Shown: positions 25,268 through 27,140 of the stretch, one piece after another
Position numbering within the stretch: position 1 is the first letter of the stretch
Layout of the letters: the number at the start of each line of letters is the position of its first letter
Assembly (NCBI RefSeq): GCF_000299335.2
Contig: NZ_CP004387.1
Coordinates: forward strand, 2,108,001-2,172,000
Reading direction: 5' to 3'
Origin: Isoalcanivorax pacificus W11-5
Lineage (GTDB): Bacteria; Pseudomonadota; Gammaproteobacteria; Pseudomonadales; Alcanivoracaceae
DNA: 64,000 nt
Made by a program: the position numbers and the translations under genes
Notes under the pieces: model-generated
Told to the model about the DNA's origin: nothing
Databases searched by the model: none
Seen by the model: the letters and a program-made list of their open reading frames with translations, nothing else

Positions 25268-26080
25268 TTACTTCCTGCGGAAATAGGTCCGCGTTGGCAC
25301 GTTGATCACGCGTTCGACGCCATCTTCATCGGTCGTCAGCACGGGCACCAGCGTGCTGGCCTTGTCGGCCCATTGCTCCATCGGCCGGGTGAACACCGGA
25401 AACTCCTGAAAAGCCATCCGATTGATGGTCTGCTCATCGATGTGGCGCAGATCGTAGTCGGTCAGTTCGAGGCCGTCCTGCGGTTCGAAACCGTTCGGAA
25501 ACACGATGAACAATACGTTCTGGTCCCAGATTTCCTCGAACTTGCTCTCGGTGAAACTGATGTTCCCCAGCGCAGGATCGGCCACATACAGGTGACCGTC
25601 GCGCCATTCACGCAACACCACGAAATGTTTGAAGCCGCCATAGGAGATCGGCACGATGGCCGGGTGATCGAGGGTGCGGAGGTCTTTCATTTCGGCGCGG
25701 AAACCACCGCTGGGATGCCCCAGCGCCGTGGCAAGCCGGCGCATGTCGAGCAGGGAAAAACCACGCCGCTCGACGATCTTTTCCGTCTCGCCGAAACGCA
25801 GCAACCCTTCCATGATCTGCCGTTCTTCGAACTGTCGTCCCAGGTACTGGTTCAGTACCGTCGTCAGCGCAGCAGACCCACAGGAATAGTCATAGGCCTG
25901 GCGCACCACATTGCGGTAACGGAATTCGGAAACCGGTTTGGGGATGATGCCGCGCTCAATGACGGGGCCTTCATGGGTAGGATGCTCATAGTAGACGTAA
26001 CCGCGGGGATAGTCTTCCACCACAGTTGCCTGATTGACGGCAAAGAAAATCAGTGCCACGCCCAGCACGGTTACCAGCAT
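25268..26080 (-). CDS. filB: C39-like cysteine peptidase, FilB-like
   Basis: A 270-residue protein with one N-terminal hydrophobic segment (about residues 1-19, signal anchor or signal peptide) that would place the rest in the periplasm. The peptidase C39-type triad is intact: Cys67 in YDYSCGSAAL, His152 in GGFKHFVVL and Asp168 in YVADPALG. Classical C39 domains sit inside ABC exporters and cleave after double-glycine leaders; this one stands alone without an ABC domain. It is encoded just after filA, whose product carries a double-glycine-like leader, so I infer that it processes FilA-type proteins. Other substrates, or a purely binding role, are possible. Confidence 0.84.
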   Translation of the reverse strand: MLVTVLGVALIFFAVNQATVVEDYPRGYVYYEHPTHEGPVIERGIIPKPVSEFRYRNVVRQAYDYSCGSAALTTVLNQYLGRQFEERQIMEGLLRFGETEKIVERRGFSLLDMRRLATALGHPSGGFRAEMKDLRTLDHPAIVPISYGGFKHFVVLREWRDGHLYVADPALGNISFTESKFEEIWDQNVLFIVFPNGFEPQDGLELTDYDLRHIDEQTINRMAFQEFPVFTRPMEQWADKASTLVPVLTTDEDGVERVINVPTRTYFRRK

Positions 26081-26096
26081 CGGAGATGCCCTTTTT

Positions 26097-26102
26097 ATTA
26101 TA
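26097..26102 (-). promoter_or_regulatory. Possible -10 element for filB
   Basis: A perfect TATAAT on the minus strand lies 17-22 bases upstream of the filB start. No good -35 is visible at 16-18 bp. If used, it would give filB-F a promoter separate from filA, with a very short leader. Confidence 0.35.
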
Positions 26103-26254
26103 GTGTCTTGTTATCGCTATGATCCGGCCCTGGCCGAATCCCACCCGGTTGAAAAATTCAGTGACCTGATACGCACTCTGATGAAGCGTTACAGGTTGTT
26201 GCATGGTAGCCCAGGAATGGGCGCCTATTGTTGGCTTTTTGTAACGGATGCAGC

Positions 26255-26280
26255 AAAACAAAGCCCGGCGCTCGCCGGGC
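26255..26280 (-). terminator. Intrinsic terminator after filA
   Basis: On the minus strand a G+C-rich 7-bp stem (gccggc-type arms at 26263-26269 and 26274-26280, loop gctc) is followed by TTTGTTTT. It lies 30 bp past the filA stop and well before filB. This would make filA transcripts more abundant than those of filB-F, as expected for a major subunit. Confidence 0.75.
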
Positions 26281-26309
26281 CTTGCTGCCATCACCTGGAT
26301 GAAGACTCG

Positions 26310-27140
26310 TTACTTGCCAGCCACTGTAATAGTAGTGCCCGACAGGCTCAAGCCATTGATGTACACATTACCAAGAGCGTTTCCGCCGCCAAGTACCAAG
26401 CTATCCACTGTCACACCTGCGATGGAACCATCAAGTGCGATACGCAGACCCGCCGGGTTATTCGTACCATCCTCAAGAGATACGGTGGTATCACTAATAT
26501 CCAAATCGTCGATAAGGATCGAACTGGCAGCAATGGAGCCACCACCCGCAGCATCGTTCAGAGAGAAGTTGGTGATTGTTACATCGCCAATATTACCATT
26601 CGTGATGTTGATGAAGTTTTCCGCCCCATCACCAAGCTGAACCTGCAACTCCAAGCTAGCAATACTGATGTTCATGGAATCCAGGATAGCCGTCTGGGAG
26701 GGAGCAACACCCGCCAAAGCAGCAGTAGTGGAGTCAGCCGCTTGGTGAGTTGCAGAAGCTGCCTTGCCGGTGTCAATCACATAAATGTCACCGGTATCCA
26801 GAGACAAGCCAGCTACGTTCACATCGACTACCAGCACACCATTCGTAGAGTCACCAGCTGCATCAATCTCCAGACCGACAGTACCGGCAAGAGCCATGCC
26901 CCGGATCAAAATACCACCAGTCTGATCGAAAGTAGCCAAGCCGACTGGAGTAGCGTTTGTCAGGCCAGTCGTATCATCGATCAACACATTCATGGTCTGG
27001 TTCAAACCAAGAGTAATGCTGATACCGTCCTGACCCGTCACCCCGGAGAGCGCCGCATCGTCCATAGCCTGCATGGCAAAACCAGTAGCAGGCAGAGTGG
27101 CGATAGCGGAGACGAGAGCGAGTTTCCTGAAAACTTTCAT
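26310..27140 (-). CDS. filA: FilA-like exported protein, probable major subunit
   Basis: A 276-residue exported protein. The signal peptide runs to Ala22 (TGFA|M), followed by the leader-like MDDAALSGVTGQ at 26-37, and then a mature chain of short repeated beta-type stretches rich in Ile, Val, Asp, Asn, Thr and Gly (for example SILIDDLDISDTTVSLED and NGNIGDVTITNFSLND). This suggests a beta-helix or polymer-forming surface protein. No Cys occurs in the mature part. ATG 27140 has AGGAG 7-8 bases upstream. A terminator follows directly, and the cluster filB-F lies downstream. In Acinetobacter the equivalent gene is annotated as a putative pilus assembly protein; true pilus function is unproven. 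Confidence 0.8.
   Translation of the reverse strand: MKVFRKLALVSAIATLPATGFAMQAMDDAALSGVTGQDGISITLGLNQTMNVLIDDTTGLTNATPVGLATFDQTGGILIRGMALAGTVGLEIDAAGDSTNGVLVVDVNVAGLSLDTGDIYVIDTGKAASATHQAADSTTAALAGVAPSQTAILDSMNISIASLELQVQLGDGAENFINITNGNIGDVTITNFSLNDAAGGGSIAASSILIDDLDISDTTVSLEDGTNNPAGLRIALDGSIAGVTVDSLVLGGGNALGNVYINGLSLSGTTITVAGK

Follow-up and report, generated by a model that had tools for sequence, protein, structure and literature searches.

The fil locus of Isoalcanivorax pacificus W11-5 encodes a Sec-type protein, FilA, next to a stand-alone C39 peptidase, FilB, and raises the question of what such a peptidase acts on and where. The locus lies within a stretch of 64,000 nucleotides (contig NZ_CP004387.1, positions 2,108,001 to 2,172,000), here called the window, to which coordinates without another label refer. 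We put at about 80% the probability that FilA is exported by the Sec pathway, that FilB then removes a leader from it in the periplasm and that export or assembly through FilC, a FapF-type channel, follows; this reading is drawn from sequence comparison. That FilB trims FilA after Sec export had been proposed in a preliminary description of this DNA and is supported by the comparisons below.

FilB and the leader-like tag of FilA

FilB (25,268 bp–26,080 bp, minus strand) is a protein of 270 amino acids whose sole Pfam match up to an E value of 1 was Peptidase_C39 (E = 2.1e-19). Its score of 70.1 bits exceeded the cut-off of 22 for this family (PF03412), and the catalytic residues Q61, C67, H152 and D168 were all present, none of them varying among 32 aligned sequences. 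Since it contains one C39 domain and lacks an ABC part, FilB is not a peptidase-containing ABC exporter. This confirmed the preliminary description of a stand-alone C39 protein with Cys67, His152 and Asp168 and no ABC exporter domain, to which the intact Gln61 can be added. The AlphaFold model of FilB predicted a single N-terminal hydrophobic helix (residues 2–18) and a C39 fold. The nearest folds were those of PCAT1, ComA and 6mpz, the last being the structure of a double-glycine protease with its leader, and the best PDB match was the C39 domain of PCAT1 (Z 17.3, 128 residues, 2.3 Å). Judged by the N-terminal helix and by analogy with the Fap peptidase FapD, which is active in the periplasm (PMC5557850), FilB would be anchored in the inner membrane and expose its C39 domain to the periplasm.

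FilB scored 302.3 bits against the NCBIfam FilB model (NF050078, cut-off 475) and 116.5 bits against FapD (NF058616, cut-off 330), under the curated cut-off in both cases, and it fell in a clade of its own (support 100/98). We call it a divergent relative of FilB because its score is under the cut-off, yet the filA-B-C-D neighbourhood agrees. All 270 residues were identical to those of a protein in Alcanivorax sp. S71-1-4.

FilA (26,310 bp–27,140 bp, minus strand; 276 amino acids) belongs to DUF6160 (PF19657; E = 3.5e-13, 50.1 bits against a gathering score of 27) and matched the NCBIfam pilus_FilA model under its cut-off (E = 1.8e-43; 149 bits, cut-off 220). Behind its Sec-type signal, residues 26–37 (MDDAALSGVTGQ; 27,030 bp–27,065 bp, minus strand) have the pattern of a C39-type leader, with hydrophobic residues at −12, −7 and −4, Gly at −2 and Gln at −1, and with the predicted cut after Q37. 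We designate this segment the tag, on the grounds of its position, its conservation and a model that places it outside strands. The tag agrees with the double-glycine leader consensus LSX2ELX2IXGG (PMC3897388) at the hydrophobic positions and the Gly at −2. It differs from leaders of this class at −1, where FilA has Gln in place of Gly, Ala or Ser, as do 39 of 40 N-termini from the order (the other one has Ala), and in that it stands behind a Sec-type signal, whereas a double-glycine leader is N-terminal with no such signal before it.

An alignment of 34 FilA relatives gave a mean conservation of 2.84 bits for residues 22–37, compared with 2.66 bits for the signal peptide (residues 1–21) and 1.42 bits for residues 43–276. 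Position 36 was Gly in all 34 sequences and position 37 was Gln in 32 and Arg in two, while the −4 column held Val (22), Thr (9) or Ala (3). The C39-like spacing of residues 26–37 claimed in the preliminary description was upheld in coordinates and motif, as was the gene order, with N-termini conserved across the relatives. In the AlphaFold model of FilA the tag formed a short low-confidence helix (residues 28–34), the mean pLDDT being 49 and 61 for the surrounding blocks of ten residues and 90 for the block after. The first strand was modelled from residue 39, just past the predicted cut, so that in this model the motif is not part of a folded strand, an arrangement that the preliminary description had named as contrary to its proposal. 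A comparison of FilA with PDB folds gave no match (best E = 0.085), which has no bearing on novelty.

The tag might instead remain uncleaved and act as a docking or sorting signal that FilB or FilC, in a chaperone role such as that of the C39-like domain of HlyB, binds before passing the protein to the outer membrane. We think this unlikely. C39-like domains may act on a substrate that they leave uncut (PMC5557850), and those of HlyB were among the fold matches of FilB (Z 14.0–14.3). Set against this, FilB has kept its four invariant catalytic residues, the role of FapD in secretion requires its catalytic Cys (Cys38; PMC5557850) and the −1 residue tracks the clade of the peptidase, as described below.

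Distribution of the tag and of FilB

The tag was present in 40 of 40 N-termini from 28 genomes of the order (39 ending GQ, one GA), which we picked among the DUF6160 matches listed, the DUF6160 model itself including the motif. Genome G138 held 15 DUF6160 matches on 10 contigs, all of them tagged (14 GQ, one GE), in open frames of 101 to 180 amino acids with varied tails. When 84 tails were compared by similarity, 28 clusters resulted; by eye, 11 resembled chance pattern matches, leaving 17. Because it is found on unrelated and often distant proteins, the tag looks portable across exported proteins rather than being the start of one fold.

The preliminary description had tied the motif to filB, and this link held in genome counts. 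FilB was counted at E ≤ 1e-45 in the order and at E ≤ 1e-10 in the class. Of 312 genomes in the order, 42 had a DUF6160 match and 41 a FilB match (both in 40, DUF6160 only in two, FilB only in one, neither in 269). After correction, for which the discordant genomes alone were re-checked, at a looser threshold than the rest, tag and FilB occurred together in 41 genomes, the tag alone in one, FilB alone in none and neither in 270. All 41 FilB genomes of the order therefore had a DUF6160 match or a tag gene. Fisher tests on both tables are indicative only, the genomes being related. The re-check found a tag gene near filB in G284, and the DUF6160 match of G283, which by eye is DUF541-like and has no tag, was discarded as a false positive. 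In the window's own family, neither DUF6160 nor FilB matches were present in four genomes of genus g197. In the class, five of 229 genomes had DUF6160 matches, and the same five held the strongest FilB matches (E < 1e-60); none of 23 further genomes with weaker FilB- or FapD-like matches had a DUF6160 match.

A scan of filB loci found no tag gene at those of Marinobacter, Hahella, Bermanella and others (five loci were read gene by gene), and such genomes were therefore searched elsewhere. DUF6160 matches were found away from the locus in 8/8 genomes searched (a ninth, L113, was left out), and the nine leaders taken from them, at least one from each, all ended GQ. Apparent GA and GG leaders in Marinobacter and Hahella (L144, 11,459 bp; L115, 11,432 bp) lay inside filC and were dropped. 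FilC was present in all nine FilB genomes among 13 genomes searched; it was not found in G247, G269 and G283, none of which had a FilB match.

Two further explanations bear on these distributions. The motif could be structural, either kin to the Fap amyloid repeat or, in a beta-rich fold, the cap or the first turn, with FilB acting on another target. The sequence GQDGISI does resemble the Fap repeat GNIGVNV, a G-x-I is conserved behind the FilA tag, Fap-type repeats near FapD fit a loose form of the pattern (e.g. INKHVLQNAKGN) and in a FapB-like protein VEGDALAGVNGA leads into a repeat. We nevertheless judge a structural motif very unlikely and do not prefer it, because in many proteins what follows the tag is unrelated sequence; the small tagged proteins differ after the tag, the model puts the tag outside strands, with low confidence, and DUF6160 is nearly absent where FilB is absent. 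The least probable explanation, to which we give very little weight, is that another periplasmic protease cuts the tag and FilB is tied in only through the fil operon. One tagged genome, G650, gave no FilB match, as this would allow. On the other side stand the C39 leader pattern of the tag, its presence with FilB in G138, where filC alone adjoins filB, and the clade-linked −1 residue.

Several variants were also seen. The GE tag of G138, MSDMELQAVTGE at locus L010, was the sole tag among its 15 that did not end GQ. Within the FilB clade, FilA or cluster proteins at L090 (7033 bp–7854 bp), L093 (1701 bp–2606 bp) and L021 (1628 bp–2353 bp) had Arg rather than Gln at −1. A protein encoded between a tag gene and filB at L064 (1766 bp–2482 bp) contained a degenerate leader-like stretch, LSDEELSQHDGY. 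At L242 in G284, a tagged protein near filB was built of repeated AHEVVEGAAR-like units.

The −1 residue, C39 clades and FapE

Sec-type proteins beside most of the other stand-alone C39 genes read carried the same leader with other residues at −1. Sec-like open reading frames (ORFs) with the leader accounted for 41 of 131 near a C39 gene on the same strand, 2 of 47 near it on the opposite strand and 8 of 122 at distances of more than 5 kb. By the scan rule, at least one leader was present at 29 of 41 loci.

Mapped on a tree built from 34 C39 domains, the −1 label required 9 changes, compared with 20.5 in shuffles, none of 200 being as low. Gln was the −1 residue of the FilB clade (9/9), Arg or Lys that of the FapD clade (8/8; support 100/99) and Gly that of a third clade (8/8; support 100/98); the label changes were three for G and three for R, with R and K mixing. 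The tree left out L074, L078, L209 and L216 (4 of 28 loci, with no clear leader or protein) and loci L220–L222 of G046. Labels were assigned by eye and not blind, those of L066 and L070 coming from tag genes elsewhere in the genome. Since neighbouring genes are moreover co-inherited, the match between clade and −1 residue is strong and not independent proof. Fifteen alignment columns separated the clades, FilB positions 124–125 among them. By this pattern, clades of C39 peptidases may have switched their specificity at −1.

At L208 (6199 bp–7986 bp), L205 (1274 bp–3540 bp) and L203, stand-alone C39 genes of another clade lay beside Sec-type proteins with leaders ending AG (e.g. LSDSALDNITAG), possibly a further code. 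At L219 (7535 bp–7825 bp) a 96 amino acid protein, whose Sec-like signal is accompanied by the fully canonical leader LSTAEMGEIKGG, was encoded near a stand-alone C39 gene, and a small protein at L217 (11,129 bp–11,518 bp) matched TIGR03949 (cerein) at 0.0044, under cut-off.

All eight FapD-clade genes in the tree had a leader protein directly downstream, within 112 bases, with leaders such as LTDGELSGMRGR, LTDEEMGDMRGR and LSDEELGGLRGR. Two of these proteins were compared with the NCBIfam FapE model and scored 101.5 and 113.9 bits, under the cut-off of 250. One of the eight, the FapD of Pseudomonas yangonensis, scored 376 bits, over the curated cut-off of 330, and the protein in the FapE position of this species carries LSDGELAQLRGR; a FapE of G320 that scored over cut-off carries LKDQELAQLRGK. 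Sixteen leaders of FapE or FapE-like proteins, read by eye, had Glu at −8 in 12, and all had Leu or Met at −7, Arg at −3 and Gly at −2; at −1 they had Gly (8), Arg (6) or Lys (2). P. yangonensis contains both the Fil and the Fap system, each with its own −1 code. A search of 145 genomes of the order found FapE in two. GA-ending matches that ran into Fap-type repeats (L073, L206 and L210) were excluded as FapD labels; L073, the one tested, was FapB-like.

The target of FapD has been called unclear, the Fap proteins being described as without canonical C39 sequences and FapE as suspected (PMC5557850; PMC6173800). A 2025 review has FapD thought to process FapE and FapF (PMC12822426), while another paper names FapC instead (PMC10638192). 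As clade-linked −1 leaders stand beside C39 genes, FapD is predicted to cut FapE after leaders like LSDGELAQLRGR, that is, after LSDGELAQLRGR itself in P. yangonensis and after LKDQELAQLRGK in G320. This turns the question of the FapD target, in a Pseudomonas biofilm amyloid, into a prediction of a single bond.

Proposed pathway, known systems and other genes of the window

In the pathway that we favour, Sec would export FilA and the other tagged proteins, and signal peptidase I would cut a few residues before the tag so that the leader comes to lie at the new N-terminus. The tag would then be a true C39-type leader acting in the periplasm rather than in the cytosol. FilB would bind it through the hydrophobic residues at −12, −7 and −4 and cut after −1, mostly Gln and sometimes Ala or Arg; FapD and FapE would act alike, with Arg or Lys at −1. 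The trimmed protein would be assembled or exported, most likely via FilC. The cleavage, the exact bond cut, how FilB is oriented and this later step are all inferred, and passage via FilC is the simplest next step because only filC adjoins filB in G138 and FilC accompanied FilB in 9/9 genomes; the step would resemble the role of FapF for Fap. We also hold it probable on balance that stand-alone periplasmic C39 peptidases serve a general 'Sec first, C39 second' pathway in Proteobacteria, in which clades use the codes GQ, GR/GK, GG and TAG, one peptidase serves many unrelated proteins, exit is via a channel of the FapF/FilC type and the target of FapD is the FapE leader.

A number of observations speak against cleavage of the tag by FilB or against its extension to other C39 peptidases. 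We know of no C39 cut site with Gln, Arg or Lys at −1, and ten leader peptides compared with bacteriocin-leader models gave no match. G39, I/V/L40 and I42 behind the FilA tag were also conserved in the 34 relatives, and the motif may be partly structural in FilA; the sequence after the tag differs from these residues in tagged proteins of G138 and G010. The scan found no leader at 12 of the 41 loci, six of which have one by eye (L075, L079, L103, L212, L213 and L217), and the count of leaders near C39 genes contains chance matches, such as FilD in the window. G230 was tagged without a FilB match (75% complete, with a partial FilC). G650, of the same phylum and another class, carried ITDKDMDDVTGQ and gave no FilB match; it is 90% complete, its absence of FilB is not proven and it was the only one of the 349 genomes of the phylum set searched for FilB. 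Lastly, in FapE of Pseudomonas sp. UK4 about 70 residues were not covered by mass spectrometry peptides (PMC5557850), more than the 40 residues that our prediction, from the FapE of P. yangonensis, would remove.

A stand-alone periplasmic C39 peptidase is known already in FapD, for which Sec-dependent action in the periplasm has been proposed (PMC5557850). The preliminary description had set the FilA-FilB arrangement apart from ABC-coupled C39 export; the lack of an ABC part in FilB bears this out, whereas the stand-alone periplasmic type itself had been described. What appears to be new is the leader tag, together with its use in trans and the −1 code. No description of the FilB tag or of the FapE leader was found in the literature searched, in which coverage of subscription journals was poor and most papers were not seen in full text. 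Through a common logic of enzyme and leader, the comparison connects the Fap amyloid with the Fil system, which has been little studied, and it assigns a probable processing enzyme to DUF6160 and to many small secreted proteins without names.

The Fap system, like the Fil system, combines a gene for an outer-membrane channel with one for a stand-alone C39 peptidase exported by Sec (PMC5557850), and the FapD and FapF models matched FilB and FilC, under cut-offs. It differs in the Arg or Lys at −1 of the FapE leader, where the FilB tag has Gln, and FilB has an N-terminal hydrophobic anchor, forms its own clade and is accompanied by a tag on many scattered proteins. With the C39 domains of PCAT1, ComA and LahT-type exporters FilB shares fold, catalytic residues and leader pattern; it lacks their ABC transporter, and its substrate has a Sec-type signal before the leader and Gln instead of Gly, Ala or Ser at −1. 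In the sortase, exosortase/PEP-CTERM and rhombosortase/GlyGly-CTERM systems the distribution of one protease likewise follows that of a short tag carried by many unrelated exported proteins, but those tags are C-terminal whereas the FilB tag is N-terminal, behind the signal peptide. The putative Fil pilus system of Acinetobacter (NCBIfam models) has the same gene set filA-B-C-D. As all four Fil scores of the window were under the NCBI cut-offs, its locus is taken to be a divergent relative of that system, and its tag reaches proteins beyond FilA.

The remaining fil genes are on the minus strand. FilC (24,169 bp–25,227 bp), a candidate FapF-like outer-membrane channel, matched the NCBIfam models FilC (E = 1.4e-106) and FapF (E = 2.3e-20), both under cut-off. 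FilD (22,471 bp–24,144 bp), a FadL-family outer-membrane protein, matched Pfam Toluene_X (E = 2.3e-67) and scored 777.6 bits against NCBIfam FilD, under the cut-off of 970. A candidate FilE-like protein (21,578 bp–22,471 bp) had a weak Pfam FilE_C match (E = 0.0079), under cut-off. Between filA and filB (26,255 bp–26,290 bp, minus strand) a GC-rich inverted repeat followed by a T-rich stretch was seen by eye; this putative terminator, if real, would hold filA expression above that of filB.

Four more tag-bearing Sec-type proteins are encoded on the minus strand of the window. They are a 707 amino acid protein (4694 bp–6817 bp) with the tag LTDMELSQSTGQ (6701 bp–6736 bp), one of 421 amino acids (6842 bp–8107 bp) with MEDSEMAGVVGQ (7961 bp–7996 bp) and no Pfam match, one of 242 amino acids (8109 bp–8837 bp) with LGDADMAAVTGQ (8727 bp–8762 bp) and one of at most 434 amino acids, or 430 from a later TTG start (8834 bp–10,138 bp), with LAEDEMAGVTGA (9992 bp–10,027 bp) and no Pfam match. 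LAEDEMAGVTGA ends in the canonical Gly-Ala, a classical C39 site. Relatives of three of the proteins encoded by this cluster (4694 bp–10,138 bp) sit together on contig 41 of G007.
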